Both the position numbers and the translations under genes were made by a program. Shown one piece after another: positions 17,551-59,289 of a DNA stretch of 64,000 nt (position 1 is its first letter; each line of letters opens with the position of its first letter). The DNA is from Styela clava (Eukaryota > Chordata > Ascidiacea > Stolidobranchia > Styelidae), in the NCBI RefSeq assembly GCF_964204865.1, contig NC_135255.1, positions 21,481,135-21,545,134 of the forward strand. Direction: 5' to 3'. The notes beneath the pieces are model-generated. The model searched no databases, was not told the origin of the DNA, and worked only from the letters and a program-made list of their open reading frames with translations.

Positions 17551-17584
17551 TCTCCAACCAAATCAAGCAGGATCTAGAACGGTA

Positions 17585-19980: not shown

Positions 19981-19988
19981 ATCTAGAT

Positions 19989-23434: not shown

Positions 23435-23462
23435 CCCCTTGAAGGGTTATTGTGGGCGGCTG

Positions 23463-24095
23463 TGTCGGCGATAGAAGTTTCTTTTCAGTTGATTATATTT
23501 TGAACGCTGTTCTTCCTTGTGTTCCGACCGGCTAATTTTTATCGATAATTGCTTTTGTGTTTTGACGCGATTTTCGCGGGCTTTACTGCACCTGACGTGT
23601 CACGCGTGGCTCTTGCATCTCGACTTTACGCGTCGTGGGACGTTCTTGTTTAATCTTGTTATGGTGTCAGTGGTGTGGTTTCGCATAACCGCTTTACTGA
23701 CTTAGCGTGTGGGTGGCATTTGGTCTCGTCAGGTAGAACTGTGGTGAGGGTATCGTAACCGGGGCCCCATATGACCATCGTCGTCATTTATTGCTTTAAT
23801 TGTTCATGTATTTTTATATTTCATTCTGCTTTCATTTCATAACTGCTTTCTAAATTTAGTTGCTATTATATTCTAATAACGTGATCGTTCACGTTACCTG
23901 TCAGTTTCTTGTCGATTTAGGCCTTTGGAGCGTTATCATATGTAAGTTTATTTTCTATTAACTTTCTGGTCTGGTTATGCATTTTCGTTCCGCCCTCATC
24001 TTGTGATTGTTTATTGATTATTTCACTTTATTTACAGTCAACCGTTTTACAATAAACGCGTATGACATGGAACATCTGTGTGCCTAAATCTGACA
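23463..24095 (+). repeat. BEL-A 3' LTR (633 bp)
   Basis: Near-identical to the 5' LTR, but with an extra 30-bp segment after AGGTAGAACT (contains GTATCGTAACCGGGGCCCC) and a 5-bp local duplication near 23965 (GGTCTGGTTATG). The AATAAA-like AATAAACGCG sits about 40 bp before the end. Confidence 0.93.
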
Positions 24096-34400: not shown

Positions 34401-36283
34401 GGAAAAAATGTCATCCACTTCTTCCTTTTAGTGTTCAGCTTTTTAGTGACTTCAACTATCTCATTTTTCGTCGGAAGAAATTTCATCCACTTCTTCCTTT
34501 TAGTGTTCAGATTATTAGTGACTTCAACCACCTCATTATTCGTCGGAAGAAATTTCATCCACTTCTTCCTTTTAGTGTTCAGATTATTAGTGACTTCAAC
34601 CACCTCATTATTCGTCGGAAAAAATTTCATCCACTTCTTCCTGTTAGTGTTCAGCTTTTTAGTGACTTCAACTATCTCATTTTTCGTCGGAAGAAATTTC
34701 ATCCACTTCTTCTTTTTAGTGTTCAGATTATTAGTGACTTCAACCACCTCATTATTCGTCGGAAGAAATTTCATCCACTTCTTTCTTTTAGTGTTCAGCT
34801 TTTTAGTGACTTCAACCACCTCATTATTCACCGGAAGAAATTTCATCCACTTCTTCCTTTTAGTGTTCAGCTTTTTAGTGACTTCAGCCACCTAACTACC
34901 CGTCGGAAGAAATTTCATCCACTTCTTCCTTTTAGTGTTCATGTTTTTAGTAACTTCAACCACCTCATTATTCGCCGGAAGAAATTTCATCCACTTCTTC
35001 CTTTTAGTGTTCATCTTTTTAGTGACTTCAACCACCTCATTATTCGCCGGAGGAAATTTCATCCACTTCTTCCTTTTAGTGTTCAGCTTTTTAGTGACTT
35101 CAGCCACCTAACTACCCGTCGGAAGAAATTTCATCCACTTCTTCCTTTTAGTGTTCATCTTTTTAGTAACTTCAACCACCTCATTATTCGCCGGAAGAAA
35201 TTTCATCCCCTTCTTCCTTTCAGTGTTCAGCGTTTTAGTGACTTCAACCACCTCATTATTCGTCGGAAAAAATGTCATCCACTTCTTCCTTTTAGTGTTC
35301 AGCTTTTTAGTGACTTCAGCCACCTAACTACCCGTCGGAAGAAATTTCATCCACTTCTTCCTTTTAGTGTTCAGCTTTTTAGTGACTTCAGCCACCTAAC
35401 TACCCGTCGGAAGAAATTTCATCCACTTCTTCCTTTTAGTGTTCAGCTTTTTAGTGACTTCAGCCACCTAACTACCCGTCGGAAGAAATTTCATCCACTT
35501 CTTCGTTTTAGTGTTCAGCTTTTCAGTGACTTCAGCCACCTAACTACCCGTCGGGGGAAATTTCATCCACTTCTTCCTTTTAGTGTTCATCTTTTTAGTG
35601 ACTTCAACCACCTCATTATTCGCCGGAAAAAATTTCATCCACTTCTTCCATTTAGTGTTCAGCCTTTTAGTGTTTTTTAATTTTTCACCTTTGGGAACAC
35701 TTCAACTTCCGTTTTCCCTCCACTTCATCCGTTTCTTCCTTCAGCCTTTTAGTGTTGTCCAAATTTGCCTGACCTGGCTGGGCATCACAACTGTCAACAT
35801 CGCAACTAATACAATTCTAACTTTTGTATCAGCTTCAAGTTACAAGTATAAAATTATTTCTAATTACTGATTTCTCTATTTATCTTTTCAGTCCTGCCAG
35901 TATGTTAGTTTAGCAAATTATTGCTTATTTCATTTCCTAGATGAAACTGTTTTAAGTACCCGAGTTTAAGAACTATAATTCTGTAGTTACGTAAGCCCAT
36001 ATGGCGTTCTGGCTGTAGAAGAATTAATTAAAAAAAAAGGTTTGGCTTACTTTGATGTATGCACTGAATCAGTGTTGATGAATGCATGTCTTCTTCTGAG
36101 GTGGTTCAAAAGATTGCCGGTTGACTCGCAGTATGACAACTTCTCTTTACAGAAGTTGCAAATCACATATGAATATCCCTCCTCTTTTGACGGGCGAGAA
36201 AAATGTTCCCAGACTAAGGAATTGGGGCGCCGTCCCTGCCGCCTAGGTGTTATTTTTTTAAAGCTACTACTGATATTAGACAT
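24997..36283 (-). CDS. hAT-2 transposase (BED finger, RNase H-like core, dimerisation domain)
   Basis: The gene is spliced from five minus-strand exons: 36051-36283, 26442-27100, 25984-26282, 25539-25820 and 24997-25461. Exon 1 begins MSNISSSFKKITPRR and contains a BED zinc finger. Exon 2 carries TTDAWTSIRMEAYITVTAPF (first catalytic Asp), VTDNGANVVSAC (second Asp) and CAAHTLQLC. Exon 3 has IDVSTRWNSTF. Exon 5 ends with ATSAASERAFSSAGLTVSQL (the catalytic Glu is in SERAFS) and HVNELNFLYCN, the hAT dimerisation region. Splice sites are GT/AG and the exon 1/2 phase agrees. The protein would cut and rejoin its own ends in the nucleus. I see no stop or frame break, so it may be functional, although intron 1 is now about 8.9 kb. 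Confidence 0.85.
25539..25820 (-). CDS. hAT-2 exon 4
   Basis: Follows TAG acceptor at 25821-25823 (minus). Encodes TASDHLEGSNYVTMSSLLP and STWLNPFHKGKFF, the segment that follows the inserted helical domain in hAT transposases. Donor gtaat at 25534-25538. Confidence 0.8.
25984..26282 (-). CDS. hAT-2 exon 3
   Basis: Acceptor CAG at 26283-26285 (minus), donor gtaac at 25979-25983. Contains HLVQHFRRSAKCM and IDVSTRWNSTFAMI, the conserved RW block of hAT transposases, and EISIILKPFK. Confidence 0.82.
26442..27100 (-). CDS. hAT-2 exon 2, catalytic core N-terminal part
   Basis: Acceptor TTTCAG at 27101-27106 (minus) and donor gtaagt at 26436-26441. Contains NVIIGDMRPINIVEGEHF, TTDAWTS and VTDNGANVVSAC, the first two catalytic acidic positions of the RNase H-like fold. 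Confidence 0.85.
27241..28822 (+). repeat. Left arm: about 20 tandem 72-bp units
   Basis: The unit includes GTTGAAGTCACTAAAAAGCT, GAACACTAAAAGGAAGAAGT and GGATGAAATTTCTTCCGACG, total 72 bp (24 codons). Two junction types alternate: AATAATGAGG (open) and GGTAGTTAGG (in-frame TAG). One unit near 28490-28505 is shortened. Both strands stay open for long distances because the period is a multiple of three. Confidence 0.93.
28823..29320. other. Foldback loop, proximal part
   Basis: AT-rich, no gene. At about 29246-29265 a GGTTGAGAACCAGTGGT motif looks like one end of a CAGTGGTTCTCAACC-type hAT MITE; the partner end is not present. Confidence 0.4.
29321..30380. mobile_element. GCCCGACCCG-array element
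   Basis: Two subterminal arrays flank an AT-rich core (about 29633-30046). The left array (29335-29632) repeats about 30-bp units of GCCCGACCCG plus ACTAATTAACTGGATTTGCA. The right array (30047-30345) repeats about 32-bp units of GCCCGACCCGAACG plus TAATGATTGACAAATCAG. Unit spacers differ but the GCCCGACCCG box is shared. The right end closes with a perfect hairpin. This looks like a non-autonomous transposon with many subterminal protein-binding boxes. I could not define target duplications. Confidence 0.5.
30329..30362. repeat. Perfect hairpin of 15-bp arms
   Basis: The arms CCCGACCCGACCCGA and TCGGGTCGGGTCGGG are separated by AATA. The GC-rich stem would be very stable. It lies at the right border of the GCCCG-array element. 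Confidence 0.9.
30725..32495. mobile_element. Nested TAGGGCTGGGCAAAAT element
   Basis: Left end TAGGGCTGGGCAAAATATTC; near 32455-32495 the sequence AATATTCGATTTTGCCCACC is its approximate inverse. The ends share the TTCGAA-type subterminal motif with hAT-1, hAT-2 and the intron-3 MITE. No clean target duplication was found; the right border is imprecise. Confidence 0.45.
31116..31347. mobile_element. Inverted-repeat MITE (TGGTACTCC ends)
   Basis: Both ends read TGGTACTCC-GT-ATATG-GAACCAAGA inward (with minor differences) and remain similar for about 80-90 bp. The 232-bp unit is therefore nearly one long hairpin. A related half-copy, including ACATCTTGGT-CAC and CAGTAGTACCA, is at 32865-32930. 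No coding capacity. Confidence 0.6.
32865..33331. other. Foldback loop, distal part
   Basis: Contains the half-copy of the TGGTACTCC MITE and otherwise nothing that I recognise. AT-rich. Confidence 0.4.
33332..35760 (-). repeat. Right arm: about 32 tandem 72-bp units, inverted
   Basis: The same 72-bp unit in opposite orientation, with the same outer about 100-bp cap. It is longer than the left arm by roughly a dozen units. Additional variants occur here (TTTTTCGTC junction, AAATGTCATCC). The inner border sequence is unlike the left arm's inner border. Confidence 0.93.
35770..36050 (-). other. hAT-2 intron 1, 5' part
   Basis: Original intron sequence between the foldback element and the splice donor of exon 1. 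Together with 27101-27231 it would have made an intron of roughly 0.4 kb. Confidence 0.7.
36051..36283 (-). CDS. hAT-2 exon 1, BED zinc finger
   Basis: NSLVWEHFSRPSKEEGYSYV followed by CNFCKEKLSYCESTGNLLNH and LRRRH fits the BED consensus (W-HF, CxxC, H-x3-5-H). It would bind the element termini. It ends at donor gtaagcc (36044-36050, minus). The ATG at 36283 is chosen because upstream codons lack similarity. Confidence 0.82.
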
Positions 36284-41939: not shown

Positions 41940-43527
41940 TAAATAGAAATCAGTGAACTGAATACGCTTCTGCGCTAAGAGTGTGATTTATATTTTCAAT
42001 AAATTAAATAACATTTTGCCGAGCAATACTCATCTTTTGCTAGATAACTAGAGTTGGATTGAAATGCTCTATAGGTAGGCTTACCATACCTCGTGGTCTA
42101 GCCGGGACAGTTTTTGTTAATGCAGTATTCAGCTATTGCTGTCAAAAAAAATTTTTAACGGAGGCAGACCATTTATCACCGATTTGCGACTCAATTTACT
42201 AGTTCAGTGAGATAACGCGAGAATTACTATAGCCTATTGTGATAATACAGTAATACAATTATTCTACGATTTATACGTCAATTTAACATCTAACAATTGC
42301 TGAACTGTTTTTTCAATTATTCAAAATTGCCATTTCCAATGATTAAAATATTATCGTACTAATCCTCGGTACCGTATCGTACCTTGCCAAGGTTTATGTT
42401 ACCTAATTCGCAATGTTCAGGTTTTTGTTTTATATAAATGGTAAGCCTATTCATAGACCATAGGCCTATCATCTACAAGTAGGTATTACTACAGTATGTA
42501 TAAGTACCGTACCGTATATTTCAACTCCATAATCAGTATAACAGGCAATATGCAAGAAAATGATACATAAATGAAATCACTTCCTGACTTCAGTACGGTA
42601 CCGTACTTGTGGTTACTCTCAGCAACCTACTGTATCATTTGCTAAATTACCGGTGCGTACCGTACATTATAAAGGCAACTTCCACACTTGCATATCTTTT
42701 ACCGCACGGTACCGTACCTTACTACTGTACTAGAATGCGTCAGACCAAGTTACCGGTACCAGTACGGAATACATCGTGCATAACAGGCTGTTATTCTCTT
42801 TGACTTCGACGGATCAAAACCAAGACTAACAATTCTCAACTGAAAATCTTTCTATAAAAAGTTCAAACTTTCTGCCAACGGCAGCGCTGTCACATTACTG
42901 CAGTACCGGTACCGGTACCAAAGTTCTGCAGTTGCGCAGAACAAACGAGCTCCGACATCGCCTGAAGTAAAACCATCAGCGCATCCCTGTTCGCGCGTGC
43001 GTGGAAAGCATCGTGCCTGCTAGTCTACCCTGTGCAATCGTGCTGGAATATCACGATGCAAACACGCTGAGTCATGATTGGCGATCGAACCAAAGAGTTT
43101 ACATGAACACGATTCGGTCAAAATACGGTTTTGGCACGATAATCGTTGCCATGTAAACGCACTAAATGGCGATATAATATGGGACGCGGTTTTAGTGAAC
43201 TGAATACCAGCAGAAGTCCTGCCGGTTGTAAATTAGTATCATGCCAAAGTGCGGTATTAGTAATGAACTGAACCTCCATGGAAGGACGAAAATTGTACCG
43301 GCACGGTACTTAGATTTGTGATGGGGTCAGTTTATTAACACGTTGGACAAGAGGATTCAAAAATTGAAGGTATGATTGAATATCATGTGACACTTTAGGT
43401 TAAGTGACGAGAAGACACTTTATAAGTAACATAGAAAAAACAGAGATAGATTTATGAAATTATAATGTTGAGTCAATTTATGAAGCAACATGCAAAATAT
43501 AAAAGAAGACAATTGACAGTAGAATAT
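41940..43527. other. Unassigned DNA rich in GTACCGTAC/ACCGGTACC
   Basis: No gene. Between about 42350 and 43320, palindromic words such as CGGTACCGTAC and TACCGGTACCGGTACC recur many times. Near 43085-43165 a pair of TTTACATG-ACAC / CATGTAAACGC words forms a small inverted arrangement, also seen near 24310-24410. The right terminus of the Harbinger element should lie here but was not identified. Confidence 0.4.
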
Positions 43528-43590
43528 AGGCCGCGAGCCGAGGCCATTTATCTTTCAGTTTCGTGGCGCACATAAGGTAACTAACCGAAA
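43528..43590 (+). repeat. Left terminal inverted repeat of the Academ-like element
   Basis: An 18-bp perfect terminal block followed by a spacer and AGTTTCGTGGCGCACATA, then GGTAACTA. It is mirrored at the right end. Confidence 0.8.
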
Positions 43591-44158
43591 ATGATTTTAA
43601 AATGTTCCTTAGAAATTCAGTAACAAATAATGCCTTGTTCCCATTTCCAAAAGTTGCACATTCAACGGAAAAAACACTTTTACTACAAGAAATATGTGCT
43701 ATCATCTGTCCTATATTCTCTGCTCTTCCGGCAACATTGGCCAATGAACGCAGACTTCTGCGTGACGTAACACATAACTTTCAATCAGCTGTTCGCGTGC
43801 GGATGAATCTCAGTTTTATCGCTCAGTCTTGTGTTAGGTTGGGTGCGGTTGCCTTTCCATCGTTTTTTTAGTTATTATTAATTGAGTTATGCTAAGACGG
43901 TGTTAAAAAGTATAGGTAAGGTGTTATACACTCGTAGATTCTTACCATGGATAGCAATTTTAGTTGTTAAATAGGCTTTGTAGGGCAACTTCAAGGACTG
44001 AAGGAGGACTAGACCTAGAAAGATATAAAGTTACGGTATCACAAACAAACAAAGATATTTCCATGCTTGTATGGAAGGTTTAGAATTAATTTATTGACGA
44101 TTCTTGAGTATTCAGCAGACCCTTTAATATAGACTACAGTATATTTGAATAAAAAATA

Positions 44159-44316
44159 ATGGCCGTTTGTGTGATGCATGTTTGTAAGAACGAGGGGAAA
44201 GTGACCAATTTTACTGATGTCGGTTGGTCTAAATTTATAGAGTCGACAAAGACCTGGGCAGCAAATATAAGTCATGCAGGAGTTGAAAAAGATGTAGCGT
44301 TGGAAGTGATTGAAAG
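44159..44316 (+). CDS. Academ-like gene exon 1
   Basis: ATG at 44159 opens MAVCVMHVCKNEGKVTNFTD, then VGWSKFIESTKTWAANIS, ending at donor gtgaga. The FT-x-W-x-KF pattern fits the family N-terminus. The next exon joins in phase across BEL-B. Confidence 0.7.
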
Positions 44317-47300
44317 GTGAGAATTCATGTATCACTGTTGTAAAGTTGGAACGTGAATTCCAATCCACTCAACGTTGTTGTAGTGGAGTCCTATTTGCAC
44401 CCGCACCCGCCTTGAAGAATTATGCGCAATCTCCCAGCTTCTAGTAACTGCACAACCAAAGTAAAGAGGCAACGAGATCCTTAGAAAACGAACTGTATTC
44501 ATCAATCTCCACATATGAGTAAAATGTTGCTACAGCACAGAAACTTGAAGACCAACGATAAAACTAATTTATAACGACACGGATGCACTATGAACAACCA
44601 ATGAAAGAATGACAAAATAACATTCACAATGACAAGCAATAATAACCAATACTAAATAGGACCTAACTGAGCTAAATTAATATAACAGATTTCACGTAAC
44701 CCGCACCTCTAATGTAAACTATATCCAAGACAAATTTTAATACTAAACGACACTTTTGCAATCCCACAGTGCCGTATAGAACAAAGAATCAGAAAGCGTT
44801 ATCTCAAAACCCGGGGAAAAGTTTCACTCCCTATTTCTTCACTATGGCGCAATAATGAGTTACCGTCAACAGGAAATCAAGATAAAGAAAGATAGAAAAT
44901 AATTCGTCTGGGATTGTTAATATAATAGAGAAATATAAATGGACAAAAGTGTGAGGCGTGCGATGTCAAATCTAACATTCCGGCCCCAGATAATTTAGAC
45001 TTATAATTATCTCAATAAAAGAGGTGATCGAAGTAGCCGAACACAAAGCATATAAGTAAACCAAATAGGAAAATGATGAATACGAAATTGTGTATGGAAA
45101 AATGTGAAATGTAATATACAGAAACAAAATAAATAATCATCAATCAGACATTTAATCAAGTTCAAGTAAACATATCTTCCTAACATCACGCATGAACGTA
45201 GATTTAGAGGTTCGTACCTTCACCCTACGCACAATGCCTAGTCTATCAGGATAAACCTCATCCACAACAGCCATCGGCCAACTACCACGGGGAAGTATGT
45301 CATCACACATAAGTACTAAGTTACCAGGCTTCAGGTTAGGGGAGGGATGAAACCACTTTGAGCGTTTCTGAAGCAGAGGTAAATATTCCCTAGTAAATCT
45401 CTGCCAAAATATATCCAACAACCGCTGGACATGTCTATAGCCCTGTCTATACTCATCAGCTCGCAGAAAAACATCAGGGGGTAGATCAGGATCTAATTTA
45501 CTTAGTAAAATAGAATTAGGTGACAGGGCATGGAGGTCTCTGGGATCATTACTTACTCGGGTAAGGGGTCTGTCATTTAAGATGGATTCCACTCCAGCCA
45601 GAAAAGACCAAAGTGAATAATCGGTTAATGGTTTATCATCAAGCATATTCCTCAGAATCTTCTTAACTTCTCTGATCAATCTTTCAACAACTCCATTCTG
45701 GTGACTTGCAAGAGGTGGTGAAAAATGCCATTGAATTCCCTTTTGTGCAAAAGCATTGTCAATTTGTTTCTTATTCCAATTTGTAATTTCATCCTTGAGA
45801 GCTTTACTTCCAGCAATAAAATTCGTACCATTGTCAGAGTACATGTGAGCTGGTCTTGCACGTCGCGAGACAAAACGAAAAAAGGCTTGTAAAAATGCAG
45901 AGGTATCCAAACTCTCTGCAACCTCCAGATGAATTGCTCGATTAGAAAGACAAGTGAATATAACTCCGTAACGCTTATGTTCGCTTCTGCCCAACTTGAC
46001 CTTTATAGGACCAAAATAATCAACGAAGCTGTGAAAGAATGGTCTATTTCCTGTACAAAGCCTAACAGCAGGCATATCTGACATCCATTGTTTACCAGGT
46101 CTGGCAGATCGAATCTTGCATGGCATGCATTCTCTAAGAACTTTTGCCACCGCTGACTGAAGATGCAATATCCAATATTTTTGTAACAAATAAGCCTGTA
46201 CTTGATTGCTTCCACAATGTCCATGTTCACAGTGGTAATAATCGATCAGAAGTCTAGTGGCATGGTGATATGGGGGTAAAATTACAGGATTCCTTTGATC
46301 AGGTTGTAATTCAGATTGACGAAGCCTGCCTCCAACTCGAAGTATGCCATCAGCCACATATGAATTACACTGCAAAAGTTCTTTAGCAAATGGCGATTTA
46401 GATCTCTTTCTGTCAGAAGGTGGAGGGCCCGAACTCATCATATCTTTAAAATAACAAAGCTCAGCAGACAACGAATCTGTTTGTATAAGTTTCACAATAT
46501 CTATAGTTGCATTTTCCCGTTCTGCAACAGTAAAACAACCAGTAACTGGAGAATCAGAACGATGTAGCAATTTCCCAATCATGTAAGTCTTGAATCTTTG
46601 AAGCCATATCACAGAGGAAATAAGTCTTTCAAATTTAGAGTAACGTTTCAACAACAGCATAAGTCCAGGTTGTTGTATAGTAGAATTCTTGTCCTTGTAG
46701 GAAATCTCATAATTAACTTTCACTTCAGAACATATTTCAGAGTCCTCAATTGTTTCAGAAATATGTGAATTTCTCAATGGTTCCTTGCTTCTCAGAAAAG
46801 AAGGTCCTTTAAACCAGCAATCAGCTTTGTGGCATTTGTCAGGCATTAGTCCACGACTGGCAATATCTGCTGGATTAGACTTAGTGTCAACATGATGCCA
46901 TTGTCTAGGTTGAGAAAGCAAGTGAATTGTATTCAATCGATTAGCAACAAAAGTTTTGAAACGTTCAGATCGACTGTTTATCATTCGAAGAACTGTCATT
47001 GAATCCGTATAGAAAAATACATCTGTTATCACTTCATTCAATTCCAATTTTATGCATCTCGCCAATTCTGTAGCAGCAACCGCTGCAGTCAGTTCAAGAC
47101 GTGGTATCGTTACAACTTTCTTTGGAGCCACCCTTGACGAGCCTTTAACAAATGCAGTGTGAATGTTTCCTGCATCGTCAATTATTTTCAAATAAGCACA
47201 AGTTCCATATGCAAAAGAACTTGCATCACAAAATACATGTAACTGAAAAGTAGATGGAGTAAATCCTTTTGGTCTGTAGCATCTACAAAATGATAACCCA

Positions 47301-50300
47301 TTCAATGAAGGTAATTTAGATGACCATTCTTCCCATTTGTCTCTATGAGGGCCAGTAATTGTATCATCCCATTGAAATTCTTCATAACAAAGATCTTGCA
47401 GAATGATACGAGCTGCAAGTACAAATGGTTGAACATACCCAAGAGGGTCAAATATCTGCGACACCATTGATAATATGCCACGACGAGTAGGAGGACGTTC
47501 CTGAATTCTGACGATAACAACAAATTGATCAGTGGCTGCATTCCAATTCAATCCTAAAGTACGACTCACCGCATCATCGCCTAGTTCCAGAGCATGAGCA
47601 ACGGGAGCCTCGTCTTCCTCAGAAACACATTGTAGAACTTCTGGTTCATTGCTTGAAAATTTAGTCAATTGAAAACCTCCTGTTGCCAGTAAACCAATAG
47701 TTTGTCGAACTAGTGTAGAAGTCTCCTCTACAGTATCCTTTGAAAACAATCCGTCATCTACATAAAAATTAGAGTAAATGCATTGAACAGCGGTCGGATC
47801 AGCATTAGATAAATTATCTTCTGCAACCTTTCGTAGGGCAAAGGTTGCAATAGAAGGTGAGCAGGTAGTACCAAAGGCATGAGATAGCATTCTAAATTGA
47901 GAAACAGGTTTTGTAAGATCATGTGTAGGAAACCATAAAAAACGAAGAGATTGTGTATCTTCACGCTTTACCAATATTCTGTGAAACATCTGTCGAATGT
48001 CACACGACACAGCAATGGGGTTCAAACGGAAGCGTAGAAGAACTCCAACTAATGAGTTATTGAAATCAGGTCCTGATAGTAAATTCTTGTTCAGTGATTT
48101 TCCATCAAACTCTGCTGAACTGTCAAAGACAACACGAAACTTCGAAACTCTGCTGAACTGTCAAAGACAACACGAAACTTCGATTGTCTTGTTGCATGGT
48201 GTGGAATGAACCAGGTTCTCTCTGTAGGTGCCAATTCATCTTCTGGTATCTGTTCAGCATATCCATTCTTTATATATTCATCCAGTTTCTCAATGTACTT
48301 TGTAGCAAATTCAGCATCCTTCTCCATTCTTCGCTTGACAGACATGAGACGTTTGAGAGCCATGTTATAGTTGTACGGTAATTTAATATCATCATATTTC
48401 CATAATAAACCAATTTGCAATCGTCTGTCAACACGCTTCAAAGTATCATTCATAATTTGTGTAGCTCGTTCATCATCCAAAGAAGGTTGTGTTGTTAATG
48501 GATCTGCATTCATATCAGCAAAATCATTTCCACAAGTTTGACAGACAGCAATTTCACGGTTAACATCACTCTCATCCAGGATATCATCATGCAATGTGGA
48601 ACAAATAAAGAAAAAATCACAACCATTCAATTTGCTGCTTTCCGTCCCCTGACAATCTGTCACTTCCGGCTTGGTAATGATTTTGCAATATAGTTCATGG
48701 TTGTCAATTGTAGGTGTCTGTGAATTATCACATGCAATTTCTTCCTCCTGCAAATTGTGATCTTCTTCTGGAAGACTTTGAGGTGACATGCAAGTATCGC
48801 ATGAAGTGTCATTAAATGATAGCAATGGAAGAGTAGTAGAAATAAAATTCACAGCTACATCACTTTGTAAATTCTGTACATCAGATATCATAGGCACAGA
48901 AGTGTTAATATAATTCAGGGAATTATTATCAGATTTCATTGATGGATCCTTGCCAAAGAGACACCATCCAAGACATGTAAGCAAGGCTCCTGGAGTACCA
49001 GGAGGTCCGACTCGGGAATCAGTAAATGGACAATTACCCAAGGTATCTGCCCCAATTAATAGTTCAACATCGCCATCAATATCTGGGAACTTCAAACCAT
49101 CCAAATGAGGATATTTGTCAATTATATCCGGCTTTGGCAATGAATCTCTGACGTCAGGAATTTTGTCAAAAGTTGAAGCATTGTGTACTTCAACAATGTT
49201 AGTATTATTCACTCCATTTAGGCGAAATGATAGTCTTTCTCCAGTATGAACAGCAACACCATTTGTAGTGCGGATCATGCAACGCTCTGGTTTACCAGAA
49301 AGGCCAATAGATTTCGCTAGACGAGTAGAGCAAAATGATCTTTGAGATCCTAGATCCAAGAAAGCAATTGTTTTCTTCTTATCACTTGCGTCAGGTAAAT
49401 GTATTTCAACAGCAACAGCCATGAGTCGAACAGGGCACAAAGTGTTGAGTACAGACATAGAATTCACAGAGGTTGTTTCAGTTTGAGGTGCATGTAATGG
49501 TTCCTTAGAACGCGACTGATGCAACGCAGGCTGCTTGGCTACCTGCTCCAAATGTAACAGAGTGTGGTGAAGTCCACCACACCCTTCTTTTAGACACCTC
49601 TTCTCTGAAGGACAACTGCTAGAAAAATGTTTCTTGGATGACATGCAATTGTAGCAAATAGACTGGTCCTTTACAAATTGTCGTCTGTTAGAAATGCTCT
49701 TCTCTTTGAATTTGTTACAGCGCATCAGAATGTGATCGCCTTTACAAAGATAACAAAGCAGATTTGCCATTCTTGCCAGAGTTATTAGTTTTGTTGTAAT
49801 TTTGTTTGAAATTAGGCTCCGATTTTGGCGTACTTAAAGTGGTGAATGTAGAAAACTTCGATGGACGCTTGTTAATGTATCCTTTATGACCAGATGATTT
49901 TGTCGCCAATTCTGCCAGAGTGCGACCATAAAATGTGTTGTACAAACGAGCTCTAGACTCAATGAATTTCAGCAAATGGTTGAATGATGGGATTGTGAAT
50001 GAAGTCCATGTGCCATTCATGACATAGTCAGTACGCATATTAGGAGGTAACCGTTCAAAGATAGCAACCAGATATGCTGGGGCATCAAGTAAATTCCCTG
50101 CATTCCAATTGTCAAACACAATAGAACAGTTACGCATCTGTGATGATAATCTGCAAAGTCCTCTGACGTCATTTACACGAATTTTCGGTCCTTCAGTAAG
50201 TTGCTTTATAAATGTGCTGATGATCAGTGATCGATTGCCAAAATGAAATTCTAAAGTGTCCTTAGCTGCATGAAATGCTTGTGCTGGGTCATCAGCCATT

Positions 50301-53300
50301 TGCAAGTGCTTAATTACTTCATATGCCTCACCTTTGCAGTGAGCAAACAATTGTGCCAACAATGTAGAAGGATCAGATGTGAGACGTCCAATTGTGTTAT
50401 AGAAAGATCTTATAAATGCATGATACTCTAATGGATCACCAGCAAATTCTACTTTATCCAATGCTGGCAAGCGGAATTCTTGTTGAATATTTCTTCCCAG
50501 AAGGTACAAATCATCTTTGCTGGCAGCTTGATGATGGATAAAGTTAGGGGAAGGTAAGGAAGGTTGTCTCATAACGGTAGGGTGAGGTAATTGTGAGCTT
50601 GACATATAAGGAGGTATGAAAGATGGAATTGTGGCAGTATTTGTGCACAAGGCATTTGAAATGGTAGGATGAGGAAAGTATGGTCCTACAGGTCTTGTTA
50701 AGGGAGGTAACACTGATGTTATCTGCTGAGATGAGTTTGTATAAACAGGGCCTGGAGGCAAACTACTAACAGTGGTAATAGTATTTGGCCCAGCCTGTGG
50801 AAAACTACTACAAAATGTTGAAAAATAAGCACTAGTATGGGCCTGCGATACAACAGGCATAGTTACATTAACATGAGAAAATATGTCTGGCCTATTGTAA
50901 TCAAAAGACATAGTATCAGCTGGCGCAATAAGCCGCTGTGGGACAGAATTTATAGGTTGTGAATACACCGGCCCCGTAAACCTATCAGGGACAGTAATAA
51001 CAGCTGTGCTAATCACAGGGGTAGGTATAATGGCAGAAAAATTATTGTCAACAAAATTAGGTGCACTGTATGGCAACTGTGAAATATTTGCATTAGAAAA
51101 TTGGTTAGACTCTACAACACTGCATGGGGTTGAAGACTGAACTGCATTAACAGTAGATAAAGGATAATACGATGGTTGTAAAACATCAAAAGACGAATTC
51201 AAATAAGAACGTATACCTGCATTTTCCAAATTATTGTTAGACAAAAGTGGAACTGAACTAGGTCTCTGACTCACTTCAGTTGAGTGGCTAAATTTGACAT
51301 CCTGTGCTGAAATGACGGTGTCAACATCCAAAATTGACTTGGAGGTAGAAGAGTCTCTGTCACTTGACAGTTCATCAAGCAGTTGAGCTTGTTGTTCTTT
51401 AAACTTTGCTTTCATCTCTGCTAATCTTTGCTTTTGCGCCGCTAGTTCTCTTTCTTGTAATGCTTCAAGTTTTAACATTCTTGATTTCTCCAGTCTTCTA
51501 TAAGATGATGAAGAAGATTTAGATTTCGACGAATGAGATATTGACCGTTTGGAAATGTAACTAATGTCGGCTTCTTTAACACAGAAGTCCAAATATTGGC
51601 GATAAATCATGTCACATGATTTCAATTTATCCACAACCTGAGTCAGGTGTAATTTTGCCACATGTTGATCAAGTCCATTATTTAAAATATAATTCTCCAA
51701 ATAAATCTTCCAACTGTTCAGATGATCGCATACTTTCTGATAATGTAAAGTAACACTTTGTTGATTTTGCTTATTCAGAATAAGTTGTGCAAAAATGTTA
51801 TTCAAATCCGTAAAAGTTTGTCCATAATGGTCATTTGCTTGACGTAGATGATCATCCTTTATTGTTTGACCCAATGAAAATTGTCGAGCTTGAACTGCAG
51901 GAATGGTGATGTCACCAGACGATTCATCAACAATATCTTTAGAAACATTTGAAGCCATTGCTGAGAATAGTAGTCAGATGTTCTTCAAAGTCGGTCAATC
52001 GAATATTAGTTTTATTTCAATGTAAAGTTGGAACGTGAATTCCAATCCACTCAACGTTGTTGTAGTGGAGTCCTATTTGCACCCGCACCCGCCTTGAAGA
52101 ATTATGCGCAATCTCCCAGCTTCTAGTAACTGCACAACCAAAGTAAAGAGGCAACGAGATCCTTAGAAAACGAACTGTATTCATCAATCTCCACATATGA
52201 GTAAAATGTTGCTACAGCACAGAAACTTGAAGACCAACGATAAAACTAATTTATAACGACACGGATGCACTATAAACAACCAATGAAAGAATGACAAAAT
52301 AACATTCACAAGCAATAATAACCAATACTAAATAGGACCTAACTGAGCTAAATTAATATAACAGATTTCACGTAACCCGCACCTCTAATGTAAACTATAT
52401 CCAAGACAAATTTCAATACTAAACGACACTTTTGCAATCCCACAGTGCCGTATAGAACAAAGAATCAGAAAGCGTTATCTCAAAACCCGGGGAAAAGTTT
52501 CACTCCCTATTTCTTCACTATGGCGCAATAATGAGTTACCGTCAACAGGAAATCAAGATAAAGAAAGATAGAAAATAATTCGTCTGGGATTGTTAATATA
52601 ATAGAGAAATATAAATGGACAAAAGTGTGAGGCGTGCGAGGTCAAATCTAACAACTGTATTGACTTATACAATGACAGTTAATGTTTTAAAATATATATG
52701 TATGCAGCGCAGGGACTGTGTGATTTAACGAGATTCAGTGTACACATAATCTTTTATGCAAACACTACATGACTGTAGTACCGTACGGTACATGAGATAA
52801 AATGCATTATGTATGAGTGGTTTTAGTCAGTGTTTAGTGGTATTTTTATTTGTCGAAAAACACTCATGTTGTTCAGAATATGCATTTCTTCCTCATTTTA
52901 GATACTTCACTTCAGAAGAAAGTGGCAATGTTCCACCCATTCCACCTAATGCAGGCTACCATCGCTGCTGCTATCAGCGCTATACATGTAAAAATAAAAT
53001 GGGTCGAAGAAAAAGTCACAAGGAAAAGCGTAAAGGTATATGAGAATCATAACAATTGCATCAGTTTAGCTACCGGTACCGCTAAATCTTGTCTGAGGTT
53101 TTGTTTGCTCCCCTGATTTCAAGATCAGTTTTTATTTATTCGTTTTTACAAATCATTTTATTGCCAGTCATGCTGATTATGGAGTCGAAAAAAACTTATA
53201 CCTACACTAAAATGTGATGACAGACCGTGAGTAGCGGACAATTTGGTAATTGAAAATGAATAATTTGTTTTAGCCGGGGAGCTTGATCCTGACACACTCG

Positions 53301-56300
53301 CACTGCCTAAAAAGATGCTACGCTCTTCTATACCAACAAAGGGTTTGGGAACGATTGAACGACCGCATATTTTTTCCGTAAAGTGTACTATATGTGGAAT
53401 TACGAGATTTAAACGCAATAAGGTGACTGGGAAGAGAGTATTAGAGAAACTGACTCGGTGTCAGACATTGGAAGCAGGATGCCTTCTCGAAGCAGCAAAG
53501 CGAAAAAAAGATGAGGTGAGTTTGAAATATCAACCTTTACATCCATCAGTTATGATTGTGGTGTAGTCACCAGTAGGGCTGTCCAAGTGAATCAATTATT
53601 CGAAATCGAATAGAATTGCATACTATTCGAAGCGTTTTTCGGCCAATTTGCGAATCACTAAAATATGGTACATAATGCGCCTCACGACCACCTTTGCACG
53701 GCGTTTTTCACGGAGCAAGCAAAAACCTATTTCTATCGCTTTCTTTGCCGTAAAAAGATGTCTCTCCTATTGCCCGGTAACATGTAATTATCCATTTCAT
53801 GCATGGCCATAAATGAAAAGTTATCGAAAACAAAGATTTGAAGATGACGTTTTTTAGTTGTTTATCATTTTGCTGAAAATTACACAAAAAATCTTGAGTT
53901 AGTAATACCAATGATAACAGGATTTGCATGCCCTATTGAAACTGAATCCATTAAAATTGAGTAAATACCGTAATGGTGAGAGTTCCTGCAATTTCAAACC
54001 CTTAAAACTTGATAGTATTCAACCGCTATTTTTTTGACCAGTTCAAAGAGGCTTGTGATCTCCTTTTATAACTCTGGAAACATAGTTATGCAATATATTA
54101 CCAATAATTTGAATGTAACTGCGCATACGTTATCACAATATCGAAGAGGAAGTTTTTATTGTGCAATAGAGACAAATTTAGGATTACACAATAATATTCG
54201 GTTCGATTCGAGAAAAATATTCGGTTTGATTCGAATCAAAAAAGTATTCGATTTTGAACAGCCCTAGTCACCAGAATAATGTTTCATTGATAAGCTTTTA
54301 TATTCCTCGTTAGCTCATGTTGATTGTATCAATTTCAGATTTTACTACTCCAACTACGGGATGTTGATCCGGTTGCATCCGAAGTCCGGTACCATTCAAG
54401 TTGCTACCAAGGCTATACTCGCTTCATGAGAAGAAAGATAGAACAGTCAGGGTCTGTGGATACGCGGTATGCTACTGCATTCAAAATGTTTTGTGAAGAA
54501 TTTATTGTACCAGGGATAATTGTGAACAAGGAGATATTTCGGTTAACATTCTTAAACACCCTCTTCAAGAGATACATCGAACAGTTTGAGCTTTTTGATT
54601 CTCCTGGTTATCGTACCTCCAACTTGAAAGAGCGTTTAAAAAAAAAATTTCCACAACTTGCATTTATACGGTCCAAAGAGCAGACGTGCAGTGATCTGGT
54701 GTTCGTGGATACCATTTCAGTTGTTGATGTCATTGAAGAAAAAGAAAACACTGCCGATCATACTGTCACATACACTGTTATGGAGGCAGAAATGGAAGAC
54801 GATTCTGAGAATGAGCAACCAACATGTTCGCAACCATCCGCGCCTCCTGCAACTAATCCACAGCAAATATTTGCTTCTGCGATGTATCTCAGAAATGTTA
54901 TTAATGACCATGACCCTTCTTTTCAACACTGGCCTCCCACTTCAGAGCACTTCGATGATAATGCAGTGAAAAAATCTGTACCAAAGTTGCTGGTTCAATT
55001 TATTAGTTGGATTACTGGGTTAATCTCTGATCCTTTTTCTGTAGAAGTAGAAGAAAGAATGTCAAAAAAAATCTACTTCATCTGCCAGGATATTGTTTAC
55101 CTATCCAAGGGCGGAAGAATGCACATGCCCAAGCACATGTCACTTGCTATGGCAGTCCGTCATTTGACTGGATCAGCCTCGTTGATTACCCTCCTCAACG
55201 GTCTGGGGCACTGTGTGTCCAATACTCTTGTTTTAGAATACGACACTGCTCTGGCCACCTTACAAGAGCTGAAGGGTCCCATCTCTATTCCATCATGTAT
55301 CAAATCAAATCGGCCTGTGACGCTTGTGTGGGATAATAACGATTTTGGGGAAGAGACATCTACTGGAAAGGGCACCACTCATAATACTAATGGTATAATA
55401 GTACAGAGAACTATTCCTGAATGTGAACAAGTATCTGGGTATTTGGAACCTACAGCAGGACTTTCACGTGATAGAAAACGCTCATTTCAGCCTTCATCTT
55501 TTGGTCTAGTTGCATATCGTGGACAAAAGAAAGCCGCACCGCAACAGATTGATGAGAGCGTAGTGACAACTAGATGCAGTTTTGTGGTACAGGAATATGC
55601 CCGAAAGCTTGACCAGGCCTATATTCTCACAAGGATTCCAGGGGACAACGAAGAATCTTTTTTTTCCTACATGGACAGGATTTAATACAAAGCTGGTGCA
55701 AAATGTTCCCCTTTTATCATCTGTAGGATATTTGCCTGTAATTTATGCAAGCCCTACAGAAATGGACACAGTCTTGACTGTCCTGGAACGAAGTGTTCAG
55801 ATTGCAGATAAACTCAAGTTGCAGACAATAGTAATTGTTTTCGATCAGGCTATTTACTCTAAAGCTCAGACAATACGGTGGCAGACGGAACTATTTAAAA
55901 ACAGAACCGTTCTTCGACTTGGTGAATTCCACACTGCTATGACTTACTTAGCTTGCATAGGTAAGTGGTTTGGCGATGCAGGCCTTCGTGATATAATCAT
56001 CGAAGCAGAACTTTGTGCAGAAGGTTCTCTCTCTGGGGTGTTAAGTGGACATCATTATAATCGAAGCGTAAGGTGCCACAAGCTGATTTATGAAGCTCTT
56101 CATCGTCTTAGATGGCAGTCTTTCCTAGAGGAAATTTCAGAAACTGATTACAATCTTGTGAAAAAAGTCATATCTGACTTGAAAGAACATTTCCCTTCGC
56201 ATATGTATGCAGAAGTTGCTGTCTCACCTGAGTACAACACTGTGTACCAGAAATATGTTGGATTTATCAAGTCAAAATCAAAATGCCCAACTTTCAGGTT

Positions 56301-58608
56301 CTGGTCTTCTTACCTTGAGATGATTGAAATTCTTCTTCTTTTTCTGCGTGCCACAAAAGAAGGGAACTGGGCATTGCATTTGTCTGCTGTCCGTGCCATG
56401 TGTCCATGGATGTTCATCACTAACCGCAACAAATACGCCCGATACTTACCAATATATTATCTTGAGATGATGTCTCTTCAAGAGACCCACCCAGATGTTC
56501 ATAACATGTTTGTAAATGGAGAATTTGTGGTTCAGAGACAAGCACGCTATGGATTTTCACAAGTTGCATGTGATATGGCAATAGAGCAAACGTGCAACAG
56601 AGATACAAAAACGAAAGGTGGAATGGTAGGATTCACCCTCAACAAAAGTGCTTCTCAGAGGTGGATATTATCACACCCAGAAAGGGCACAAATAACAAAG
56701 GCATGCTTTGGGTATGCTGGGAGAGACTCGCAAGGGCGTGATAGGAAAGATCTTGATAAACCTCATTCTGTACGAGAAGAATCAGCCATTTGTCGCAATA
56801 TTGAGTGTATGGAAGGTTTTATAAACCCCTTTTTACGTGAATCTGAGGATCTTATACATATTGTTTCAGGAGTCGTAGTTCCCGAAGTAATTGCCAGTGA
56901 TATTATGACAGCTGAAGAGAGAGGAAGATTCTGCTTCACTCAGTTCTGCAAAGATCGGCTTTTATCAAACAAGAAAAGTTTTCATGATACTATAAGTAAT
57001 TTGAAATTAAAATCGTTTTCAAGTGTTGGAAAAATAATTAAGACCAAATGCAGTCAAAAGGAGATGGATTTAAAGTCTGGAAGAAATCTGATGGCGCGTC
57101 TTGCAATCATAGGAAGAGAGAGAGGTATCAAGATTGAGGATTTGCTCAAATACTCTCTTGGCCCTTTGCCCTTGTCGTTGGCATACACAGACGGAGGCCT
57201 AATGAGGACATCCAAAGCAAAACTGATGCATTACCTCTGCGAAAGTATACCATCTTCTATTGCTAAAGGATTACCAAGCGAATCAGTTTGGATACTAGAT
57301 GCAATGGCTGTTCTACAAAGCATCAACCACAGGAATATTCCCAAAACATTTGGAGATCTTGCCGCACTATACCTTTTGAAGTTAGTGAAAATTGCCCAGG
57401 AAAGTTGTGCAAAGGTTGTGCATCTCGTAATGGATAGATACCCCTCAATAAGCATTAAGAACGCAGAAAGACATCGGAGGGCTAAGCATCAAGCTGTTTG
57501 CCAAACAAGAGAAAATGAAATTTATTCAGAGAGCCAGAGGATACCACTTCAGTGGAAAAAGTACTTATCCTGCGGAAAAAACAAGGAGCTCCTGATGGAA
57601 TTTTTTATTAAATCTTGGAGTCAGAATGTCCAAAGTCTTGACTTCACACTGTTTATCGGCTATGCGGAATCTTGTCTGAAAATTTGCTTTGCTAGTACAT
57701 CGCATACTCCAACAATTGCAAGAGTAGATGAATTGGAATGCTCTCATGAAGAGGCTGACACCCGTCTAATGCTTCACGCTAAGTTTGCCGCTAACTCTTG
57801 CAACTCTATAGTAATCCAGTCACCAGACACGGACGTGCTCATACTGTGCATTGCAAAATATGACAATTTGGGTTGTTCTCTTTGGTTTGAAACTGGCGGT
57901 GCCAAAGGTAGACGGGTTATTGATGTTGGTGCCATACATTGTTATCTGAGCCAAATCCACCCATCGGCTCCAATGGCTATGGTAGGAGCACATGCAGATA
58001 GCGTGTCCTCCTTTTATGGAAAAGGAAAAGTGAAGCCCATCAAACTGGTGTTGGAGGAGTCAAAATTCATCGAGTTTATTGCTCAACTAGGAAGATCTTT
58101 TGACGTTAACGAGGCATCAATGAATAGAGCTGAGGAATTTGTTTGCTCGCTGTATGGAGAGAATATGAAAAATGTAAACGATGCCAGGGCACGTCTTTTC
58201 AAAATAGGCAAACACATGGATCACACCCTTCCACCCAACAGTGATTCACTGAAGGAGCATGTTCTGAGGGCAAATTACCAGGCAGCAATTCATCACCTTT
58301 GCCTAGAACCAAAGCCAATTATTCCTTCACCTATTGGCCATGGATGGGTTCTTGATGATGGCGTTTTGCAAGTTAAATGGATGGATCTACTTCCAGCCCC
58401 CAAATCAGTTCTTGAGTTGGCAAACTGCAAGTGCAAGAAGAATAGGTGCCAAACTAATTTATGCACATGTATCAAAAACAACCTCAATTGTACAGAATTT
58501 TGTTTTTGTGTTGACTGCCAAAACCAGTGTGAACTAATAGAGGAAAAGTCGATTTTCGAAACCGAGACAGTTGAAAATGAATTAGATATTGAAATTATAA
58601 TTTATTAG
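44159..58608 (+). CDS. XPG-like nuclease/CXC-domain gene of the Academ-like element
   Basis: Exons 44159-44316, 52902-53035, 53274-53515 and 54339-58608 join in consistent phase (about 1600 codons). Exons 1-3 and early exon 4 are Cys/His-rich, with the repeated motif YHRCCYQRYT (exon 2) and YHSSCYQGYT (exon 4). The C-terminal third has HEEADTRLMLHAK, SPDTDVLILCIAKY and GAHADSVSSFYGKGKVKP. These acidic motifs are arranged as in FEN1/XPG-like nucleases and match a multi-copy metazoan family that reads HA-TGCD-xS in the last block. The end (CKCKKNRC to CVDCQNQC) is a ten-Cys cluster of tesmin/TSO1 CXC type. A run of eight T (55660-55667) shifts the frame by +1; one T fewer would restore it. Inferred role: transposase/nuclease. 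Confidence 0.78.
44339..44977 (-). repeat. BEL-B 3' LTR (639 bp)
   Basis: Identical to the 5' LTR except for three noticed substitutions and an extra 6 bp near 44628 (ACAATGACAAGC versus ACAAGC). Confidence 0.95.
45152..48106 (-). CDS. BEL-B pol, RT core, RNase H, integrase, DUF5641
   Basis: Continues pol after the duplication: PIAVSCDIRQMFHRILVKRE, NFYVDDGLFSKD (catalytic YVDD), FDPLGYVQPF, RNase H-like LHVFCDASSFAYGTCAYLK and VFFYTDSMTVLRMI. Integrase zinc region YHCEHGHCGSNQVQAYLL to CMPCKIRSARPG, then catalytic FVDYFGPIKV (D), MYSDNGTNFIAGSKAL (D) and GVVERLIREVKKIL (E). Ends DILPRGSWPMAVVDEVYPD and KICLLELD, the DUF5641-type tail. All catalytic residues are in place. The only visible defect upstream is the 38-bp duplication. 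Confidence 0.92.
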   Translation of the reverse strand, partial: DGKSLNKNLLSGPDFNNSLVGVLLRFRLNPIAVSCDIRQMFHRILVKREDTQSLRFLWFPTHDLTKPVSQFRMLSHAFGTTCSPSIATFALRKVAEDNLSNADPTAVQCIYSNFYVDDGLFSKDTVEETSTLVRQTIGLLATGGFQLTKFSSNEPEVLQCVSEEDEAPVAHALELGDDAVSRTLGLNWNAATDQFVVIVRIQERPPTRRGILSMVSQIFDPLGYVQPFVLAARIILQDLCYEEFQWDDTITGPHRDKWEEWSSKLPSLNGLSFCRCYRPKGFTPSTFQLHVFCDASSFAYGTCAYLKIIDDAGNIHTAFVKGSSRVAPKKVVTIPRLELTAAVAATELARCIKLELNEVITDVFFYTDSMTVLRMINSRSERFKTFVANRLNTIHLLSQPRQWHHVDTKSNPADIASRGLMPDKCHKADCWFKGPSFLRSKEPLRNSHISETIEDSEICSEVKVNYEISYKDKNSTIQQPGLMLLLKRYSKFERLISSVIWLQRFKTYMIGKLLHRSDSPVTGCFTVAERENATIDIVKLIQTDSLSAELCYFKDMMSSGPPPSDRKRSKSPFAKELLQCNSYVADGILRVGGRLRQSELQPDQRNPVILPPYHHATRLLIDYYHCEHGHCGSNQVQAYLLQKYWILHLQSAVAKVLRECMPCKIRSARPGKQWMSDMPAVRLCTGNRPFFHSFVDYFGPIKVKLGRSEHKRYGVIFTCLSNRAIHLEVAESLDTSAFLQAFFRFVSRRARPAHMYSDNGTNFIAGSKALKDEITNWNKKQIDNAFAQKGIQWHFSPPLASHQNGVVERLIREVKKILRNMLDDKPLTDYSLWSFLAGVESILNDRPLTRVSNDPRDLHALSPNSILLSKLDPDLPPDVFLRADEYRQGYRHVQRLLDIFWQRFTREYLPLLQKRSKWFHPSPNLKPGNLVLMCDDILPRGSWPMAVVDEVYPDRLGIVRRVKVRTSKSTFMRDVRKICLLELD
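48107..48182. repeat. 38-bp tandem duplication inside BEL-B RT
   Basis: Two identical copies (48107-48144, 48145-48182) of a unit starting AAACTCTGCTGAACTGTCAA. Because 38 is not a multiple of three, the duplication shifts the pol frame within the RT domain, between FDSSAEF and the SGPDFNNSL-type sequence. Confidence 0.95.
48107..49770 (-). CDS. BEL-B pol, zinc knuckles to RT N-terminus
   Basis: Begins in a +1 frame relative to gag with NLLCYLCKGDHILMRC and CYNCMSSKKHFSSSC (two zinc-knuckle-like motifs). Then comes AIAFLDLGS-type protease sequence (TIAFLDLGSQRSFCSTRLA), a long variable linker, and RT start RTWFIPHHATRQSKFRVVFD. At 48107-48182 a 38-bp segment is duplicated in tandem, and the frame then runs out of register. 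Acts with the downstream pol part as protease and reverse transcriptase if translated. Confidence 0.85.
49742..51958 (-). CDS. BEL-B gag (738 aa)
   Basis: Starts MASNVSKDIVDESSGDI. Residues about 155-205 form a charged coiled coil (RRLEKSRMLKLEALQERELA, then QKQRLAEMKAKFKEQQAQLL). A long Pro/Ser/Thr-rich middle follows, then the DUF1759-type core (LPALDKVEFAGDPLEYHAFI, EAYEVIKHLQMADDPAQAF, LEFHFGNRSLI). It ends in a Lys/Asn-rich tail. Gag would assemble the particle. The frame closes at 49742 just before the zinc knuckles, which in BEL elements usually continue the same polyprotein. The next frame is +1 and overlaps by about 29 bases. Confidence 0.88.
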   Translation of the reverse strand: MASNVSKDIVDESSGDITIPAVQARQFSLGQTIKDDHLRQANDHYGQTFTDLNNIFAQLILNKQNQQSVTLHYQKVCDHLNSWKIYLENYILNNGLDQHVAKLHLTQVVDKLKSCDMIYRQYLDFCVKEADISYISKRSISHSSKSKSSSSSYRRLEKSRMLKLEALQERELAAQKQRLAEMKAKFKEQQAQLLDELSSDRDSSTSKSILDVDTVISAQDVKFSHSTEVSQRPSSVPLLSNNNLENAGIRSYLNSSFDVLQPSYYPLSTVNAVQSSTPCSVVESNQFSNANISQLPYSAPNFVDNNFSAIIPTPVISTAVITVPDRFTGPVYSQPINSVPQRLIAPADTMSFDYNRPDIFSHVNVTMPVVSQAHTSAYFSTFCSSFPQAGPNTITTVSSLPPGPVYTNSSQQITSVLPPLTRPVGPYFPHPTISNALCTNTATIPSFIPPYMSSSQLPHPTVMRQPSLPSPNFIHHQAASKDDLYLLGRNIQQEFRLPALDKVEFAGDPLEYHAFIRSFYNTIGRLTSDPSTLLAQLFAHCKGEAYEVIKHLQMADDPAQAFHAAKDTLEFHFGNRSLIISTFIKQLTEGPKIRVNDVRGLCRLSSQMRNCSIVFDNWNAGNLLDAPAYLVAIFERLPPNMRTDYVMNGTWTSFTIPSFNHLLKFIESRARLYNTFYGRTLAELATKSSGHKGYINKRPSKFSTFTTLSTPKSEPNFKQNYNKTNNSGKNGKSALLSL
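52021..52653 (-). repeat. BEL-B 5' LTR (633 bp)
   Basis: Partner of 44339-44977. On the minus strand it precedes the gag ATG at 51958. Confidence 0.95.
52659..52901 (+). other. Academ-like gene intron 1, 3' part
   Basis: Intron sequence following BEL-B up to the acceptor of exon 2. Together with 44317-44333 it would form the pre-insertion intron of roughly 0.27 kb. Confidence 0.65.
52902..53035 (+). CDS. Academ-like gene exon 2
   Basis: Acceptor TTTTAG, donor gtata. Encodes YFTSEESGNVPPIPPNAG and YHRCCYQRYTCKNKMGRR. The donor is weak, so the boundary is less certain than the others. Confidence 0.65.
53274..53515 (+). CDS. Academ-like gene exon 3
   Basis: Acceptor GTTTTAG, donor gtgagt. Encodes CTICGITRFKRNKVTGKR and LEKLTRCQTLEAGCLLEAAK, a CxxC-containing block found in the same order in relatives. 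Confidence 0.75.
53574..54266. mobile_element. hAT MITE in intron 3 of the Academ-like gene
   Basis: Ends TAGGGCTGTCCAAG and, inverted, TAGGGCTGTTCAAAATCG, with AATCGAAT/ATTCGATT subterminal motifs. Exact 8-bp duplication gtcaccag at 53566-53573 and 54267-54274. 693 bp, no coding capacity. It shares TAGGGxTG termini with hAT-1 and hAT-2. Confidence 0.9.
54339..58608 (+). CDS. Academ-like gene exon 4 (most of the protein)
   Basis: Acceptor AATTTCAG. Starts ILLLQLRDVDPVASEVRYHS and runs to the stop at 58606-58608. The only disruption visible is the T8 run at 55660-55667, which closes the first frame at 55685 while the second continues NLFFPTWTGFNTKLVQNV. Contains the XPG-like motifs (about 57740-58030) and the CXC cluster (about 58425-58535). 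Confidence 0.8.
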
Positions 58609-59206
58609 ATTCTTACAGATATGTGATAGTGTCATTCATTCATTCAATTTTCTTGACTTTTCGGTGTCAATTTCTCTTTTTTCATTATTAGTGTTTTTGT
58701 GACTTCATTGCATAAAAATAAATGCGCTTGATGGCTTTTATAAAATAAATGCAACATCTTATACCGTTCTTTGTTGCTTGTGCGAGGGAGGCTGATTTTG
58801 GTCAGACAAAACGCTGCAGAAATATATTAGTGTTAAATGCAGCTGGGCTCTTGAATTGCATAGTTCTTTTGCTGTATTGTAAACCTATGGTTATTGATTT
58901 TCTGGGAACCGCCTTATATCGAATTTAGCACCAGGGTTTTAACCGATTAACTTGTGTTTTTGTGCTTAAGGTAATAATTTGTGATTTTATCGCATAAAAA
59001 ATTGATGTGTTCGATGGCATATATGAAATGAAAGCGACGTTCCATGCTCTGTCGTTTTAAGCCTATGATCATTGATTTTCGGGGAATCCCCTTGATATCC
59101 AACTTTTGCATCACGATTTTTGAAGCCCGATTTACAGAAAATGTGCAACTTCCGTTAGTGGGAACAAGCTGTAATGCGTTCAGTATGTCCATTTTGATAC
59201 AAAACT
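58609..59206 (+). other. Academ-like element 3' untranslated region
   Basis: AT-rich sequence after the stop, with AATAAATG near 58720-58750 as possible polyadenylation signals. Two related AACCTATGGTTATTGATTTTC / AAGCCTATGATCATTGATTTTC-type blocks occur about 180 bp apart (58882 and 59060), a partial internal duplication. No second gene. Confidence 0.5.
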
Positions 59207-59284
59207 GAAGAATAAATATAGTTACCAGATGTGCGCTACGAAACTCACTTTCTAGGCGTTTTTCAGGGCCTCGGCTCGCGGCCT
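59207..59284 (-). repeat. Right terminal inverted repeat of the Academ-like element
   Basis: Inverse of the left end: GGTAAC, ATGTGCGCTACGAAACT, spacer, then GGCCTCGGCTCGCGGCCT. The spacer is several bases longer than on the left. Confidence 0.8.
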
Positions 59285-59289
59285 AATAT

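Follow-up and report, generated by a model that had tools for sequence, protein, structure and literature searches.

The nuclease of AcademX transposons is XPG-like, and Kolobok transposons duplicate a TTAA target. Academ is counted among the DDE superfamilies (PMC9004415, PMC9587614), and its elements are long, with a mean of 5565 bp over curated bivalve consensuses (PMC10294476). Two types concern us here, which differ in gene content and target-site duplication (TSD), AcademX having a nuclease with a TSD of 3–4 bp and AcademH a helicase with a TSD of 9–10 bp (PMC10045372). We analyzed a stretch of 64,000 nucleotides of the Styela clava genome (hereafter the window), in which we find a DNA transposon that moves by cut and paste and very probably belongs to the Academ type, close to AcademX as judged by its features. 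It measures about 7.4 kb without the younger BEL/Pao insertion that it now carries, and its gene would encode a protein of about 1600 aa combining a DDE core, an XPG/FEN1-type region and a CXC domain.

The element spans positions 43527–59285 and is bounded by perfect 19-bp terminal inverted repeats (TIRs; TAGGCCGCGAGCCGAGGCC), the coordinates of which are collected in the table together with those of the other features. The original prediction had named perfect 18-bp inverted ends (43528–43545 and 59267–59284) and a second end block, AGTTTCGTxGCGCACAT. Both are present, the first reaching 19 bp when the adjoining T/A is included, and the second forming a further inverted block, with 16 of 17 positions matching, between the left inner block and the terminus. 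Searching the window for the 18-mer end with up to three mismatches returned these two sites only, and none in 100 shuffles; folding of the left end as single-stranded DNA was no better than that of shuffles. The same prediction envisaged a single gene between the ends, which did not hold: the interval contains more than one gene because a BEL/Pao retrotransposon lies nested in intron 1. Pfam profiles identified in this insert a Pao peptidase A17, a reverse transcriptase (below its cut-off) and an integrase zinc domain. The insert makes up over half of the window element, is foreign to the original one and is younger than the DNA transposon that surrounds it. A 15.7-kb element moving as one unit is ruled out by this nested BEL, and once the insert and its duplication are subtracted, about 7437 bp remain.

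Features of the transposon and of the nested BEL/Pao insert, in positions of the window
Feature	Position	Strand	Evidence or detail
TSD ATA, left	43524..43526		single ATA at paralogous empty sites
Left 19-bp TIR	43527..43545	+	same terminus in sister copies and shorter derivatives
Inner inverted block, left	43634..43662	+	pairs with 59140–59168, 29 nt, 83%
Transposase gene, exon 1	44159..44316	+	donor site, stop-free joined frame; region in sister copy L010
BEL/Pao TSD ACTGT	44334–44338 / 52654–52658
BEL/Pao LTR retrotransposon in intron 1	44339..52653	-	LTRs, TSD, Pfam domains
BEL/Pao LTRs	44339–44977 and 52021–52653		639/633 bp; 630/633 aligned bases equal
Exon 2, YHxxCY motif	52902..53035	+	splice sites, joined frame, sister copy
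Exon 3, CxxC zinc-finger-like motif	53274..53515	+	family-2 counterpart weak, E 0.22
Exon 4: candidate DDE core, XPG/FEN1-like region, CXC domain	54339..58608	+	open in three sister copies
Candidate RNase H-like (DDE) core	55326..56100	+	WDNND 55326, FDQAIY 55837, GEFH 55921, IIIEAE 55993
XPG/FEN1-like nuclease region	57289..58030	+	WILDAM 57289, VMDRYP 57427, EEADTR 57748, SPDTDV 57820
CXC (tesmin/TSO1/LIN54-like) cysteine-rich domain	58423..58530	+	ten Cys, weak profile matches
Inner inverted block, right	59140..59168	-	pairs with 43634–43662
Right 19-bp TIR, complement of left	59267..59285	-	same terminus in sister copies
TSD ATA, right	59286..59288		single ATA at paralogous empty sites

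Several further repeats were recorded in the window. A perfect 38-bp tandem duplication (48107–48182) lies in the nested BEL where the pol frame splits. A second BEL/Pao element, at 16109–24095, has LTR-like ends 92.4% alike and a coding region spread over several frames. An inverted pair of 72-bp tandem arrays, at 27329–28801 (minus strand, about 20 copies) and 33337–35672 (plus strand, about 32 copies), encloses GC-rich 26- to 69-bp repeats at 29336–30338; long open frames run through the arrays, one of them reaching 773 aa, and the two frames tested gave no Pfam match. The minus-strand frames 15403–16245 and 26434–27153 match the hAT-associated DUF659, the second below cut-off.

The relatives described here were all found in a single genome of 376.6 Mb, the same assembly as the window. 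The exon-4 protein gave at least 50 matches in it, and copies at 96% or more besides the window lie on C10, C13 and C14, while C6 has three, two near 2.68–2.69 Mb and another near 18.88 Mb. The original prediction called for several copies in which gene and ends keep the same arrangement, and such copies were found, near-identical, in the same genome: all five gene-bearing loci of this family (family 1) in which both ends were read have the same ends and a 3-bp TSD, namely ATA in the window, CTT in C10, CTG in C13, AAT in C14, and AAT at the outer flanks of the composite formed by the two neighboring C6 copies. In the C6 copy near 18.88 Mb the right end was seen, and the left end was looked for and not found. 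The AATAT that had been noted beside the element is indeed present on both sides, and a duplication of these 5 bp fits the window, but C10, C13, C14 and the C6 composite have just 3 bp in common. Because these other gene-bearing copies share only 3 bp beside the 19-bp ends, the window TSD is ATA, and the 5-bp AATAT is a chance extension of it. The window's empty sites fit a 3-bp and a 5-bp duplication equally, and the case for 3 bp is made by the sister copies.

The comparison with empty sites was run on paralogous sites of the same genome, using as query the left and right flanks of the window element with a single ATA between them. This produced eight genome rows, two being the window itself and six falling at five other loci. 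At all three of the paralogous loci read (L062, L063 and L064) the alignment crosses the junction with a single ATA and no element, L064 having a 57-base gap immediately left of the junction; the two remaining candidate loci are not included in this count, one having a row that ends before the junction and the other a row that extends 10 bases past it. In addition, the short element L034 sits within another copy of the family, with its target GTG doubled.

Shorter elements share these ends. Genome-wide, the 19-mer TIR with up to three mismatches occurs at 361 + 377 sites (738), against 2 + 4 for the reversed control. From 100 exact TIR sites listed, we took loci whose ends face each other in order of listing and read the first 20, of which 18 carry an exact 3-bp duplication, L022 and L029 being without an outer TSD. 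Fourteen of these loci are 2.92–2.98 kb long, one is 2.06 kb, and four, with further sequence, are 5.8–7.4 kb. They match the window element at 75–100% by block over its left 800 bases (or parts of these), a piece around exon 2 and the sequence after about 58,075; between about 53,070 and 58,075, which includes the DDE core and the nuclease region, none of the 20 matches, except for a 126-base block in L033. It had been asked at the outset whether the TIRs occur without relation to the gene. They do occur without the full gene, but the 20 gene-poor loci retain both element ends together with the gene's 3' part and have the appearance of a related element that has undergone deletions. One of them, L022 (C1:23023092–23029387), consists of two elements of about 2.95 kb placed head to tail, abutting with a common TA (GGCCTAGGCC), the outer flanks not being duplicated. 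Separately, TIR sites cluster at C3:15716860–15786417, with two pairs 3.6 kb apart, possibly a local element array.

A second family extends the association between gene and ends. Its relative L036, on C5, encodes a protein 41–42% identical to that of family 1, and its ends (TAGGCCATGGGCCGAAA), with AAT on both sides, have only their first bases in common with the family-1 TIR. The family-2 TIR occurs at 12 exact places in the genome, 11 of them beside listed copies of the family-2 gene; allowing one mismatch adds 15 sites, none adjoining a listed gene copy. All four complete pairs have a 3-bp TSD (AAT, AAT, TTG and CAA). Because family 2 has a TIR of its own, adjacent to the gene and with a TSD in each complete pair, gene and ends travel together in two separate families. 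The target duplications, which had been expected at 3–5 bp, measure 3 bp in every gene-bearing locus of both families with both ends read and in 18 of the 20 further loci. These data also bear on the idea that a transposon took up a host gene, such as a nuclease/CXC factor, or that such a gene merely sits amid inverted repeats unrelated to it. The abundance of the TIR (738 sites) and the absence of the gene core from the 20 loci read would suit such a gene, yet ends and TSDs agree at the gene-bearing loci of two families so far apart in sequence (5/5 and 4/4), the gene-poor loci still have the two ends along with the gene's 3' part, and gene and ends are co-mobile in both families, which leaves the host-gene explanation scarcely credible. 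The copies, the ends, the TSDs, the empty sites and the second family with its own ends all favor the mobile element of the original prediction: the element moves as a unit between TAGGCC-type ends, which are joined to the target with a 3-base stagger.

The gene of this transposon is best read from the sister copies. Four exons with GT/AG sites are predicted, and their joined frame is stop-free up to about 55,657. In the window, exon 4 falls into two overlapping ORFs in different frames (54324–55685 and 55567–58608); comparison with a sister copy shows a T run near 55,657 that differs in length by one base and shifts the frame, and a 12-base deletion near 57,997 that has removed the GCD motif. 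An extra splice junction within exon 4 is ruled out, since three sister copies read through, their exon 4 being open from stop to stop over 1427–1431 aa. The window copy is broken; of the single four-exon gene of about 1600 codons that had been proposed for it, the four GT/AG exons stand and the continuous exon-4 frame does not. Among the three open copies dN/dS is about 0.4–0.6, on few changes (6/3, 11/7 and 11/8 nonsynonymous/synonymous codons in the three pairs).

The product of about 1600 aa, complete only in the sister copies, appears to comprise a zinc-finger-like N-terminus, a DDE core, an XPG/FEN1 region and a C-terminal CXC domain, every domain match of this protein falling below the curated cut-off. 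The N-terminal region bears CxxC and YHxxCY motifs. In the candidate DDE core, D507, H536 and E560, as numbered in an alignment of four rows from three families (A3), are invariant there; they belong to the motifs FDQAIY, GEFH and IIIEAE, respectively. The first candidate D is conserved in two families, the fragment of the third (27% identity) not extending to that D. The Pfam family DUF6589 matches this region with E 5e-5 in family 2 and with E 0.069 and 0.15 in trimmed family-1 proteins; at E up to 1 it matched neither the whole L010 protein nor the family-3 fragment. A genome-wide search with DUF6589 returned one place, a family-2 copy, L036 being missed and the controls silent, and our literature search found no paper on this family of unknown function.

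Within the nuclease region, five motifs in FEN1/XPG order are conserved across families 1 and 2, among them the EEADTR and SPDTDV of the original prediction. The XPG-like identity that it proposed draws on weak matches pointing the same way. Pox_G5 matches family 1 with E 0.0012 and 0.0033, only with the CXC end trimmed off, and gave no match in family 2 and none genome-wide, where the controls were silent too. A five-sequence profile aligned with EXO1 at E 0.44, not significant alone, with the GCD motif aligned. The order of the acidic motifs and the GCD motif are like those of FEN1, EXO1 and XPG, including poxvirus G5, at the level of weak profile matches; unlike in those proteins, the candidate nuclease region here shares one polypeptide with a transposase-like part and a CXC domain. 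The ten-Cys CXC-type end was confirmed, with E 0.0029 for Pfam TCR (below cut-off), 0.0033 for the LIN54 CXC and 0.023 for the LIN54 chain 5fd3. Its cysteine pattern is the same as in the CXC domains of LIN54, tesmin and MSL2, from which it differs in being a single C-terminal repeat, putatively DNA-binding, in a mobile-element protein. Both AlphaFold predictions made on single sequences (nuclease and DDE) had a mean pLDDT of 34. PHROGs returned families of unknown function only (best E 0.0068), and Rfam nothing at the gathering threshold. Scans of viral contigs (with the protein and three motif patterns) and of genome contigs (with one pattern) gave no relative, their sole match, L001, looking like a phage contig matched by chance.

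As for the class of the transposon, we file it with AcademX because a nuclease with a TSD of 3–4 bp is the combination given for that type in the passages on it (PMC10045372), so that the Academ-like identity first proposed agrees with the 3-bp TSD, features being the basis of the judgment. The likeness, taken by description, covers the candidate nuclease region, the 3-bp TSD, TIRs flanking the gene and the length of the element; the CXC domain is a difference, going unmentioned in those passages on Academ. AcademH, of the same superfamily by name, is ruled out by the 3-bp TSD and by the lack of any helicase match to Pfam at E up to 1, and Kolobok by TSDs that are 3 bp long throughout (ATA, CTT, CTG, AAT, TTG, CAA and others). 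We know of no other superfamily that joins an XPG-like nuclease to a TSD of 3–4 bp, and a literature search found no paper joining four of the terms transposon, XPG, FEN1-like, CXC domain and transposase. A TIR transposon from outside Academ, for instance from an unnamed DDE superfamily, might have gained an XPG-like nuclease independently, in keeping with a membership judged by features and with DUF6589 being a family of unknown function; against this, nuclease and 3–4-bp TSD together make up the AcademX combination as far as described (PMC10045372), and we consider such an origin quite improbable. For an AcademX-like transposon, the DDE-like core would cut and join strands, the XPG-like region would trim or nick flapped or branched ends at the junction of element and flank, and the CXC domain with the N-terminal fingers would bind the element ends. 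Shorter copies with the same ends would be moved in trans, and one end from each of two copies may be used together.

Such joint use of ends may have left its trace in the two neighboring C6 copies (C6:2678832–2693724). Here a full copy A (7445 bp) is followed by a copy B in two parts, first its last 975 bases in inverted orientation and then a stretch of 6473 bases. These parts have three bases (AAA) in common, which are present at both inner junctions; each inner junction directly abuts a TIR, and AAT borders the whole structure at either end. Over these lengths A and B are 100% identical. Sister-chromatid or reversed-ends transposition of Ac/Ds is known for its "double Ds" form. Alternative transposition accounts best for the C6 double element: one sister copy would have supplied its left end and the other its right end, and the two, taken jointly, would have been inserted into either copy. 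When maize Ac/Ds transposes in this alternative way, the ends of two copies are likewise joined to one target, with a TSD at the new junctions; unlike the 8-bp TSD given there, that of the C6 element has 3 bp, and its target lies within the partner copy (PMC3744419). The double element might instead be an assembly artefact or a plain nested insertion, which we hold to be unlikely: mis-joined haplotypes could produce the same 100% identity but would hardly be expected to leave one and the same base triplet next to each inner TIR together with matching outer AAT, and after a plain insertion of A into B the target sequence to the left and right of A should be identical, but it is not. We see about an even chance that an Academ-type DDE-XPG transposase pairs one end from each sister copy to generate the C6 double element, in sister-chromatid or reversed-ends fashion, that the fused FEN-like nuclease and CXC domain make it a two-nuclease machine, and that the family is a source of inversions and duplications like Ac/Ds.

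Together, these observations link a protein barely recognized by general domain libraries with a mobile element whose ends are exact, which has empty sites, and whose gene-poor relatives bear the same ends; the gene can therefore be annotated as a probable transposase in the Styela clava genome. With open sister copies and a double element at one's disposal, the mechanism of a little-studied superfamily becomes directly testable, both in the role of its extra nuclease and in the possible pairing of ends from two copies.
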